A DNA stretch of 64,000 bases, taken from positions 62,001-126,000 of the forward strand of contig DATMES010000020.1 in the NCBI GenBank assembly GCA_035556555.1. The letters run 5' to 3'. The stretch comes from Frankiaceae bacterium (lineage in GTDB: Bacteria > Actinomycetota > Actinomycetes > BP-191). Position numbers and translations under genes: made by a program. This document shows positions 20,019 through 23,710 of the stretch, in pieces (position 1 is the first letter of the stretch; each line of letters opens with the position of its first letter). The notes beneath the pieces are model-generated. The model ran no database searches. It worked only from the letters and a program-made list of their open reading frames with translations, and was not told where the DNA came from.

Positions 20019-21206
20019 ATGCGCAGAGCCCTCGCGATGCTCCTGCTGATGGCCGGGACTCTCGTCCCGGCCATCAGCGCGTCCGCACAGTCCCAGAACG
20101 GCGGCGTCGGCATCCGCCTCCTCGAGGCTCCGACCGCCCGCGAGAAGGACCCGCGCGCGCGGCGGTCGATCGTCGACCACGTGAAGCCGGGGGCGTCGTT
20201 CAGCAGGAAGTTCGAGGTCTCCAACACCACGAGCGGGCAGCGGCTGATCTCGATCTACGCCGCCGCGGCCGACGTCGTCGGGGGGCAGTTCGTCCCCGCC
20301 GACGGACGTACCCAGAACGAGCTCTCCGGCTGGATCACCCTCGACACCAACAACGCCGACCTCCCCGCCGGGGGCACCGTGCAGCCGCGGCTCACGATCA
20401 CCGTGCCGCCGACCGCGACCGAGGGGGAGCGGTACGCCGTCATCTGGGCCGAGCTGCCACCGGCCACGCCACCGGCCGGGGGCGTCGCCGTCGTCAACCG
20501 CGTCGGCCTGCGCGTCTACCTGTCCGTCGGCGCCGGCGGCGAGCCCGCGACCGACTTCGTCATCGAGTCGCTCACCGCCGAACGCGACGCGCAGAAGCGC
20601 CCCGTCGTCCAGGCCACCGTCAAGAACACCGGCGGCCGCGCGCTCGACCTCTCCGGCAACCTCCGCCTGACCAACGGGCCTGGCGGGCTGTCGGCGGGGC
20701 CGTTCGACGCCCGTCTCGGCACGACGCTCGCCATCGGCGCCAGCGCGCCCGTCACCATCCCGCTCGACCCGAGCCTGCCGGACGGTCCGTGGGACGCGCG
20801 GATCGAGCTGCGTTCCAGCACGACGGTGCGGACGGCTGAGGCGACGATCACGTTCCCCGCGGCGGCCGGCGCGACCGCGTCCCCCGTCGCCGCGGACCCC
20901 GTCGAGGAGAAGTCCTCGTCGTCCATGCTGCCGGTGCTGCTCGCGGTCGGCGGCGGCGTACTCCTCCTGCTGCTCCTCCTCTTCCTGCTGCTCCGCCGCC
21001 GATCGTCCGCGCCGCCGACCGTGGCGCTGCCGCTCGACGACGTGCTGACCGAGCTGCGTACGGCGGAGGGGAAGCGGCGTACGGAGCTCATGGGGATGGC
21101 GGCGGCGTACGGCAAGGAGGCGATCATGGCGTCGCCCGCGCTGGCGGCGCTGCCGGTGCAGACGGCGCGCGACCTCGGCGAACGGGTGGCCAAGACCGGC
21201 CGGTGA
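20019..21206 (+). CDS. DUF916-like membrane-anchored surface protein (WxL partner)
   Basis: This 395-aa protein has a signal peptide (1-24), two beta-sandwich regions, a transmembrane helix (about 308-328, a Leu-rich run ending RRRSS) and a ~70-aa cytoplasmic tail. GIRLLEAPTAREKDPRARRSI followed by SFSRKFEVSNTTSGQRLISIY, and VNRVGLRVYLSVG, match DUF916/WxL peptidoglycan-binding proteins. It probably displays or retains the WxL-like protein at the surface. It follows that gene by 42 nt. Confidence 0.78.
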   Translation: MRRALAMLLLMAGTLVPAISASAQSQNGGVGIRLLEAPTAREKDPRARRSIVDHVKPGASFSRKFEVSNTTSGQRLISIYAAAADVVGGQFVPADGRTQNELSGWITLDTNNADLPAGGTVQPRLTITVPPTATEGERYAVIWAELPPATPPAGGVAVVNRVGLRVYLSVGAGGEPATDFVIESLTAERDAQKRPVVQATVKNTGGRALDLSGNLRLTNGPGGLSAGPFDARLGTTLAIGASAPVTIPLDPSLPDGPWDARIELRSSTTVRTAEATITFPAAAGATASPVAADPVEEKSSSSMLPVLLAVGGGVLLLLLLLFLLLRRRSSAPPTVALPLDDVLTELRTAEGKRRTELMGMAAAYGKEAIMASPALAALPVQTARDLGERVAKTGR

Positions 21207-21237
21207 TCACCTGGTCGCGCCGGAAGGTCGTCGCGGC

Positions 21238-21243
21238 GATACT
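21238..21243 (+). promoter_or_regulatory. Possible -10 (GATACT) for PIG-L gene
   Basis: GATACT ends 7 nt before the ATG at 21251 and supports that start over the GTG at 21203. Confidence 0.35.
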
Positions 21244-21250
21244 GCGCGTC

Positions 21251-22045
21251 ATGCCTGCCAACCGGACGCTCGCCTGCGTCTTCGCGCACCCGGACGACGA
21301 CGCCTACGGGGCCGCGGGAAGCGTGGCGCTGCACGCCGACGAGCCGGACTTCCGGTTCGTCCTCGTCCACGCGACCGCGGGCGAGCAGGGCGACATCCGG
21401 GACGGGTTCCCGGCCACGCGAGAGACCCTCGGTGCCATCCGACGGGCCGAGGACGAAGCCGCGTGGCGTGCGCTCGGCCGCGTCCCCGACCGGCACGAGT
21501 GGCTCGGTCTGCCTGACGGCGGGGTCGCCGACGTTCCTCGCGAGGACGTCGTCGCCGCGGTCGAGCGGATCCTTGCGGAGGAGGAGCCCGCTGTCGTCGT
21601 GACGTTCGGCCCCGACGGCATCTTCGGACATCCCGACCACATCGCGATCGGCGCGGCCACTGACGAGGCGTTCCTGCGTCTGCGCACCGGCACGCGATCC
21701 GGGTTCCAGCGCCTGGCGCATGGCGCGGTCCCGCAGTCAGTGTTCGATCGGTGGAACCGCCAGCGCGCCGAGCTCGGGCTCTTCACCTTCGACCCGACGC
21801 GGACGTACCACATGCGCGGGGTTCCGGACGAGCAGATCCACGTCACGGTCGACTGTCAACGGGTGGCGAGCCGCATCGTCGCCGGACTCCGCGAGCACCG
21901 GAGCCAGCTGCACGTCATGTCCGACGACCCGGACAACACCGACCAGTGGGAACGGCGCGTGCGGCGCGAGTGGTACACGCTCGTCTGGCCGGACGAGCGG
22001 CCGGACGGGGAGATGCTCACCGACCTCTTCGACGGCCTGGCCTGA
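21251..22045 (+). CDS. PIG-L family deacetylase
   Basis: This 264-aa protein is a zinc-dependent LmbE/PIG-L N-deacetylase. The first motif is FAHPDDDAYGAAG, and the zinc-binding HPDH is found in TFGPDGIFGHPDHIAIG. The substrate class is N-acetylated sugars or conjugates; it is not clearly MshB or Mca. An in-frame GTG at 21203 overlapping the previous stop (GTGA) is an alternative start giving 16 more residues, but the -10-like hexamer and the short family N-terminus favour 21251. Confidence 0.82.
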   Translation: MPANRTLACVFAHPDDDAYGAAGSVALHADEPDFRFVLVHATAGEQGDIRDGFPATRETLGAIRRAEDEAAWRALGRVPDRHEWLGLPDGGVADVPREDVVAAVERILAEEEPAVVVTFGPDGIFGHPDHIAIGAATDEAFLRLRTGTRSGFQRLAHGAVPQSVFDRWNRQRAELGLFTFDPTRTYHMRGVPDEQIHVTVDCQRVASRIVAGLREHRSQLHVMSDDPDNTDQWERRVRREWYTLVWPDERPDGEMLTDLFDGLA

Positions 22046-22100: not shown

Positions 22101-22205
22101 ATGACCATCGAGCACGTCTTCACCGGGCTGCTGATCGCGGTGTTCCTGTTGATCGGCTGGTTCTCGGTGTACGTCGTCTACAAGCTCTACCAGGGCCAGC
22201 GCTGA
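22101..22205 (+). CDS. Small single-pass membrane protein (34 aa)
   Basis: MTIEHVFTGLLIAVFLLIGW and the rest encode one transmembrane helix (about 8-27) with a short basic tail ending YKLYQGQR. A clean leaderless promoter and a good start support it as a real gene despite its size. It stands between the PIG-L gene and the RiPP-like gene. No function is known. Confidence 0.6.
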   Translation: MTIEHVFTGLLIAVFLLIGWFSVYVVYKLYQGQR

Positions 22206-22279
22206 CCCTCCTTGCGCCACCGCGGTAGCCACGCGACGCTGCACCGGTCCACCCCTACGGACCGAAACGGGGATCCACC

Positions 22280-22468
22280 GTGAAGAAGACCCTCTCGCTG
22301 CGCGCCGAGCGCCTCGCCGAGCTGACGACCGCCGACCTCGACTGCGTCGTCGGCGCCGGGCAGATCACCGGTACGACGTGCCCCGTGCGCACCTGCAACC
22401 CGCCCACCGTGAACCTCGCGACCTGCGAGTCGGTCCCCAACTGCCCGACGCTCCCCGTCTGCGACTGA
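22280..22468 (+). CDS. RiPP-like (lanthipeptide-type) precursor peptide, orphan
   Basis: This 62-aa peptide looks like a ribosomal natural-product precursor. The leader MKKTLSLRAERLAELTTADL followed by DCVVGAGQ matches the L-x-L-x-x-E-x-L-x-E-L-(T/S)-x-x-(E/D)-L-x-x-V-x-G-(A/G) leaders common in Actinomycetota. The core (about 29-62) is rich in Cys (34, 39, 49, 55, 61), Thr and Pro (TCPVRTCNPPTV, CESVPNCPTLPVCD). The start is GTG. No LanB/C, LanM, radical SAM, protease or transporter gene is adjacent, so any maturation would rely on enzymes elsewhere. Confidence 0.6.
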   Translation: MKKTLSLRAERLAELTTADLDCVVGAGQITGTTCPVRTCNPPTVNLATCESVPNCPTLPVCD

Positions 22469-22555: not shown

Positions 22556-23710
22556 GTGGACTTCACGATCACTCCTGAGCAGGAGGCGTTCCGCCGGTCC
22601 GTCCTCGCGTGGGCGCGCGACGTCGTCGCGCCCGAGGCGGCGGACCGCGACAAGCAGGGGCGCTGGGACCCGGCGATCTGGCGGTCGTTCGGCGAGCAGG
22701 ACCTCGCCGGGCTGCCGATCCCGACCGAGCTCGGCGGCGCGGGCGGCAGCATCATCGACTGCTGCCTCGCCAACGAGGCCATCGGCGAGGGCGGCCACGA
22801 CGGTGGCTTCAACCTGTCTCTCGGCGCCCACTGGGTGATCGGCACCGTCCCGATCTGGCTGCACGGCACCCCCGAGCAGCAGGCGCGCTACCTCCCGCGG
22901 CTGTGCAGCGGCGAGTGGGTCGGCGCGTGGGCGTCGACCGAGCCCGAGGCCGGCAGCGACGCGGGCTCGATCCGTACGACCGCTCGCCGCGACGGCGACG
23001 AGTGGGTCATCAACGGCACCAAGATGTTCATCACGAACGGCCCCATCGCCCAGCTCTGCACGGTCCTCGCCGTGACCGACGGTGAGGCGGGGCCGGGGCG
23101 CGGCGTCAGCGCGTTCCTCGTCGAGACCGACAACCCCGGCTTCGCCGTCGGGCGCGAGCTGGACAAGATGGGGTGCCGTTCCTCGCCCACCGCGGAGATC
23201 GTCCTCACCGACTGCCGCGTGCCCGCCGGCGCGATGCTCGGGCCCGAGGGGGAGGCGCTCTGGCGGATCGCGTTCGAGTGCTTCGACTGGGAACGCACCG
23301 TCATGATCGCCGGCTCCATCGGCGGGATGCAGTCGACGCTCGACGGCGCCATCGCGTACGCCAAGGAACGCCGCCAGTTCGGCAAGCCCATCGCCCACTT
23401 CCAGGCGGTCGCGCACAAGCTCGCCGACATGAAGATCAACCTCGAGGTGTGCCGCACGGCCGTCTACCGCGCCGCGTGGCTCAAGCAGGAGGGGCTCCCG
23501 CACGCCATCGAGGCGTCGATCGCCAAGACCCTCGTCGGCGACCTCTCCGTCAAGAACGCCATCGAGGCCATCCAGATCCACGGCGGCTACGGCTACATGC
23601 GCGACTTCTCCCCGGAACGCTCGCTGCGCGACTCCAAGCTCACCTCGATCGGCGGCGGCACCACCGAGATCCAGAAAATGATCATCAGCAGGGCGCTACT
23701 CGGCGACTGA
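22556..23710 (+). CDS. Acyl-CoA dehydrogenase
   Basis: This 384-aa flavoprotein has the N-terminal helical domain (VDFTITPEQEAFRRSVLAWA), the middle FAD-binding beta domain (AWASTEPEAGSDAGSI, WVINGTKMFITNG) and the C-terminal helical domain (RRQFGKPIAHFQAV, GGYGYMRDFSPERSLRD). It oxidises an acyl-CoA at C2-C3 and passes electrons to ETF. At the usual catalytic Glu position of the YEGT motif it has Gly (SIGGGTTEIQ), as in isovaleryl-CoA-type enzymes whose base sits on an earlier helix. The substrate is undetermined. Confidence 0.92.
   Translation: MDFTITPEQEAFRRSVLAWARDVVAPEAADRDKQGRWDPAIWRSFGEQDLAGLPIPTELGGAGGSIIDCCLANEAIGEGGHDGGFNLSLGAHWVIGTVPIWLHGTPEQQARYLPRLCSGEWVGAWASTEPEAGSDAGSIRTTARRDGDEWVINGTKMFITNGPIAQLCTVLAVTDGEAGPGRGVSAFLVETDNPGFAVGRELDKMGCRSSPTAEIVLTDCRVPAGAMLGPEGEALWRIAFECFDWERTVMIAGSIGGMQSTLDGAIAYAKERRQFGKPIAHFQAVAHKLADMKINLEVCRTAVYRAAWLKQEGLPHAIEASIAKTLVGDLSVKNAIEAIQIHGGYGYMRDFSPERSLRDSKLTSIGGGTTEIQKMIISRALLGD

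Follow-up and report, generated by a model that had tools for sequence, protein, structure and literature searches.

How a lanthipeptide-type precursor is matured when no maturation gene lies beside it is the question raised by a short ORF in the 64,000-nucleotide stretch of Frankiaceae bacterium DNA analyzed here (hereafter, the window). An earlier note described this ORF (hereafter, the target) as an orphan that was either modified in trans or left as an unmodified disulfide peptide. To place it, we compared the genome that contains the window (G000: 3.98 Mb, 71 contigs) with its two congeners (G001 and G002); these three draft assemblies alone make up the sample of the order, and G001 shows 7% contamination. 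Based on these gene comparisons, the target quite likely belongs to a large family of class I lanthipeptide-type precursors whose genes are scattered over the genome and whose products would be matured in trans by one LanB/LanC set.

The target is a real gene with precursor anatomy

The target encodes 62 amino acids (MKKTLSLRAERLAELTTADLDCVVGAGQITGTTCPVRTCNPPTVNLATCESVPNCPTLPVCD; Table 1) and shows the leader–core anatomy of a class I lanthipeptide precursor, with a 26-aa leader ending in VVGA, a form of the GG/GA motif, followed by a core that contains Ser/Thr and Cys. The GG/GA motif is the cut site used by C39 peptidases. We counted five Cys, seven Thr, and one Ser in the core, in agreement with the earlier description of a Cys/Thr-rich core with five Cys, although the length of 34 residues given there misses by one or two, according to the cut position assumed; 36 aa follow VVGA. 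When the target was scanned alone against Pfam and NCBIfam, there were zero family matches, its score lying below the cut-off of the class I leader model NF038153, and a pattern scan of the contigs with the target returned no relative. A chance ORF could also be expected here, as the ribosome site ahead of the GTG start is weak and the DNA is GC-rich and dense in ORFs. Against this, a leader profile built without the target scored it at 41.6 bits (E 3.6e-12), compared to 4.6 bits (E 1.4) for the runner-up ORF in the window, and 141 family members were found across the three genomes. A chance ORF, to which we give next to no probability, is refuted by the score of the target-free profile, and positions 22280–22468 hold a real gene, far above chance.

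Table 1 Coordinates of the target, its neighbors, and the two lanthipeptide loci of G000 (window positions unless a contig is named).
Feature	Location	Strand	Remarks
PIG-L-like deacetylase gene	21203–22045		upstream of target
34-aa membrane peptide ORF	22101–22205	+	directly upstream of target; 74 bases between
CCCCT box of target	22252–22256	+	first base at -28 from start codon
GGGGA, ribosome-binding-site-like	22269–22273	+	6 bases ahead of GTG; putative, from sequence
Precursor gene (target)	22280–22468	+	62 aa; GTG start at 22280, TGA stop at 22466–22468
Leader, residues 1–26	22280–22357	+	MKKTLSLRAERLAELTTADLDCVVGA; basis: family leader alignment
Core, residues 27–62	22358–22465	+	GQITGTTCPVRTCNPPTVNLATCESVPNCPTLPVCD
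Acyl-CoA dehydrogenase	22556–23710	+	directly downstream of target; 87 bases between
lan locus	G000 C2:197051–204960		order: two precursors (-), LanC, LanB, 143-aa protein, C39/ABC exporter (all +), three precursors (-)
Class III locus	G000 C1:75781–83165		LanKC (RamC_N, kinase, LANC), extra LanC-like protein, two ABC-like genes

One leader is shared by dispersed precursors in three genomes

When G000 was searched with the target peptide, hits were obtained at 53 places (E ≤10), and 34 of these were leader paralogues (E <0.02). From 44 leaders we built a profile (consensus MxRxLxLxxETLxELTTDELxxVVGG; GG or GA at the end in the common family leader) that identified 60 members in G000, 27 in G001, and 54 in G002. 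The term orphan therefore does not hold, given that the target is one of 60 leader paralogues in its own genome, and the further leader copies that the earlier note had proposed to search for proved to be many. All 141 members were recovered as small ORFs at their loci, mostly 46–78 aa long (starts: ATG 105, GTG 32), and a purine-rich ribosome site precedes 105 of 140. Their leaders end in GG (74/141) or GA (56/141), together 130/141, and a Cys within the leader, as in the target, is unusual (4/140). The 60 members of G000 occupy 25 places on 18 contigs, ranging from singletons to arrays of eight.

Within the sample, the family leader is confined to these genomes. Across the class (395 genomes in 138 genera, E ≤1e-4), only the three congeneric genomes matched the profile, leaving 0/392 others with the family leader. 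With a broader profile, which combined the family leaders with leaders of other LanB systems, G000 was the sole match among 397 genomes of the phylum (0/396 beyond it). In 16 genomes with LanB relatives, the same profile found 0–8 leaders each, nearly all on a single contig per genome; one Hymenobacter locus has eight leaders in a tandem array.

A single class I lan locus is the candidate maturation machinery

The search for lanthipeptide synthetases, also proposed earlier, yielded one LanB, two stand-alone class I-type LanCs, and one class III LanKC with a LanC-like partner in G000. Its four LANC domains all belong to stand-alone LanCs or LanKC, and none of the four represents a class II LanM. 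LanB (1002 aa) is full length with both Pfam domains (PF04738: E 4e-157; PF14028: E 4e-56) and can be aligned with solved lantibiotic dehydratases including NisB. Thus, the genome encodes the enzyme pair of a class I system, i.e., a LanB with glutamylation and elimination domains plus a LanC. The LanC of the lan locus (407 aa; PF05147) retains AHG, WCYG, and CHG when aligned with NisC, which we take to be the active-site and zinc motifs, and the exporter (732 aa; PF03412 [C39], PF00664, and PF00005 [ABC]) retains the C39 ADCGAA and H/D segments. The DrrAB-like exporter 29 kb from the target, to which the earlier note had drawn attention, is beside the point; a C39-peptidase exporter is encoded within the LanB locus itself.

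The block of LanC, LanB, small protein, and exporter is also present in G002 (C64) and G001 (C97, cut by the contig end), and family members flank it in all three genomes. A second, partial lan copy exists on C9 of G001, an assembly with 7% contamination, and its LanB is 86% identical to that of C97. One precursor linked to the lan locus of G000 (C2:204341) passes the class I leader model NF038153 with a score of 23.8 over the cut-off of 22, while other siblings reach 13–19. The lanthipeptide-type leader recognized earlier in the target was confirmed. About 1 kb from the lan locus, C2:190556–195973 encodes an RHS-repeat protein (1805 aa) that carries a ribonuclease domain at its C-terminus (PF00545) and looks like an interbacterial toxin.

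The absence of an adjoining maturation gene, noted earlier, was confirmed for the target: its neighbors are those listed in Table 1, and it lies on contig C20, whereas the lan locus is on C2, so that the target is not linked to lanB or lanC. The other scattered precursors also have ordinary, unrelated neighbors. No co-traveling enzyme was found near them except at the lan locus, which alone recurs as a modification locus, and the neighbors that they share are syntenic, ordinary, or generic ABC genes. All family members share the leader, there is a single LanB, and the lan locus is conserved, which together speak for one machinery serving the whole family, and modification of the target in trans, as predicted from these genes, is supported. 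A second stand-alone LanC and a class III LanKC are present, so the shared enzymes need not be obligatory for every precursor. The second stand-alone LanC (C1:35161; region C1:34823–36426) has a family precursor about 130 bases off and no LanB nearby.

Maturation by the class III locus instead of LanB was considered, given that this locus comprises LanKC with its RamC_N, kinase, and LANC domains, an extra LanC-like protein, and a pair of ABC-like genes. It has its own short, class III-type precursor-like frame directly upstream (MQNILALQALELDTVSN... / MQNILALQALELDTVSNAYVLESWSTISYQCCTQTHT...), and there are 0 family members within 10 kb of it, compared to five flanking the LanB locus. We rejected class III maturation on these two grounds and regard it as highly improbable.

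In class I systems, LanB acts by glutamyl-tRNA-dependent glutamylation and elimination of Ser/Thr side chains, and LanC adds Cys to the products. By analogy, each precursor would use the shared leader to dock on the single LanB and LanC; dehydration of core Ser/Thr via glutamyl-tRNA would follow, and Cys would close the dehydrated residues into (methyl)lanthionine rings. Cleavage after GG/GA would then be performed by the exporter's C39 peptidase during export.

Core composition and turnover

With the leader fixed for docking, the cores would be free to diversify. They are about 33 aa long and mostly dissimilar to one another. Compared to a proteome sample, the pooled cores are enriched in Cys (12.5% vs. 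0.9%; 14.2-fold), Thr (14.2% vs. 6.9%; 2.1-fold), and Pro (8.0% vs. 5.9%), and depleted in Glu, Arg, and Lys. Every core contains at least three Ser/Thr. The spacing [ST]xxxC occurs 167 times, compared to 105 in shuffled cores, whereas Ser/Thr-x-Cys, with one residue between, is rarer in the cores than in shuffled ones. Two short motifs recur, PTLP (14 vs. 0.3 expected) and CIT (17 vs. 2.8 expected).

This composition bears on the possibility that the family encodes secreted disulfide peptides, whose leader would be a double-glycine export signal only and whose cores would never be dehydrated. In favor of such peptides, odd Cys counts are common (three or five in 51/140 cores) and the genome encodes a C39 exporter. 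The exporter is, however, encoded together with LanC and LanB in a block flanked by the family in three genomes, Thr is doubled in the cores, LanC keeps its Zn-ligand motifs, and one family member fits the class I lanthipeptide leader model. We therefore consider disulfide peptides unlikely; of the two fates proposed earlier for the target, modification in trans agrees with the genome, and the unmodified disulfide form is the less likely one.

Certain core types are common to the species at syntenic loci and keep their Cys pattern (e.g., C38/C82/C10 and C42:79838/C129/C64:52993), and others form radiating arrays. At the second of these two loci, the precursor with an SGLPC...CTG(Y/N)Y core is syntenic in three species (C42:79838 in G000, C129:28645 in G001, C64:52993 in G002), and its neighbors in each are ABC transporter genes and a small secreted protein. 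The N-terminal half of the target core reads GxTCPVxxC, which is shared by three precursor arrays, and its nearest cores belong to this group in the C73 array of G002 (z ~6.5 against shuffles). The pN/pS ratio was 0.77 in the core and 0.62 in the leader for 43 pairs that were selected for similar cores and in many cases overlap, a weak test from which positive selection is not clear.

An upstream box and the species-specific position of the target

The motif CCCCT was found at -60 to -12 ahead of 39 of 73 leading precursors, compared to 24 of 305 other genes whose upstream region is free (p = 4e-17), a p-value that overstates independence because related copies share descent. Still, the leading genes lie at scattered places in the three species; the position of the box peaks at about -25 from the start codon. 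In the longer form CCCCTC, it lies within the final 60 upstream bases of 31/73 leading precursors and 4/305 other genes, and the variants CCCCT(C/A) occur ahead of leading precursors in G000, G001, and G002. The simplest reading suggests a promoter or 5' UTR element common to the scattered copies.

Around the target, the acyl-CoA dehydrogenase gene shows 85–86% DNA identity in both congeners, with no precursor beside it, and the upstream flank gene shows 76–78%. The 34-aa membrane peptide is likewise present in both (tblastn: 76% and 71%) without an adjoining precursor. At the syntenic place in these two genomes, neither the target precursor nor the PIG-L-like gene was found, and a gap of 6.4 kb separates the two flanks in G001. 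The position of the target is therefore species-specific, either gained in G000 or lost in the congeners, and selection on this one copy is not demonstrable. The PIG-L-like gene and the nearby target, both missing in the congeners, may represent one gain event.

The missing counterpart, together with the rare Cys in the leader, would fit a family in which only cluster-linked precursors are matured and the scattered copies, including the target, are relics or unexpressed. This seems improbable in view of the intact leader frames (0/60 interrupted in G000), the conservation of the leader at scattered sites, the retention of several scattered loci and core types across three species, and the CCCCT box kept upstream, that of the target included. 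Maturation of the scattered copies in trans remains our preferred interpretation.

Comparison with known systems

Genomes in which a synthetase serves many substrates are known from picocyanobacteria. ProcM of Prochlorococcus acts on ProcA peptides, with 30 precursors in MIT9313 (PMC11667668), and SyncM of Synechococcus on SyncA peptides, with up to 83 (PMC10783134); prochlorosin precursors form tandem arrays and isolated genes distant from the enzyme (PMC7268733, PMC10783134). In the literature covered here, synthetases with 10–80 genome-encoded substrates are described for class II only (PMC11667668, PMC12328550). The gene set reported here resembles the prochlorosins in having one synthetase and dozens of dispersed precursors whose cores are diverse and whose leader is common to all (60 precursors at 25 places and a single LanB). 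It differs in that prochlorosins rely on a class II LanM and Nif11-type leaders, whereas LanB, a separate LanC, and an L1a-type leader occur here in an uncultured Actinomycetota order. A Nif11-type leader was not found, either in the target, which lacked any Pfam/NCBIfam match, or in its siblings, which match lant_leader_L1a.

Class I systems with L1a leaders (NF038153; Bacteroidota, Myxococcota, and Actinomycetota) share the LxLxxExLxxLxxxxLxxVxGG leader, a related LanB, and an implied C39/GG cut. Compared to their 0–8 leaders in the 16 LanB-related genomes, the 60 leaders of G000 are mostly distant from the enzymes. As a multi-precursor class I cluster, the Pseudonocardia MAG 53_S67 (L126, 3583–8866) has a LanB with 44% identity and, next to it, about nine short precursor-like frames that contain Cys, but its leader is of the form xxETxADL...GG and the observed frames all adjoin the enzyme. 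The literature searched, which excludes most subscription journals, contained no case of a dispersed or many-precursor class I system. On balance, we favor a combinatorial class I system in which one LanB/LanC/C39-exporter set would serve about 60 dispersed precursors with a shared leader and CCCCT box; it would be limited to one uncultured Actinomycetota order and would have arisen independently of the class II prochlorosins.

The apparently orphan precursor could be placed by a genome-wide search for its leader, instead of a search for enzymes in its neighborhood. If our interpretation is true, the one-enzyme-many-substrates strategy also arose in a mechanistically unrelated, glutamyl-tRNA-dependent dehydratase. 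The LanB/LanC pair would then be naturally tolerant and usable for peptide libraries, and the turnover of cores under a constant leader could be traced in three species.
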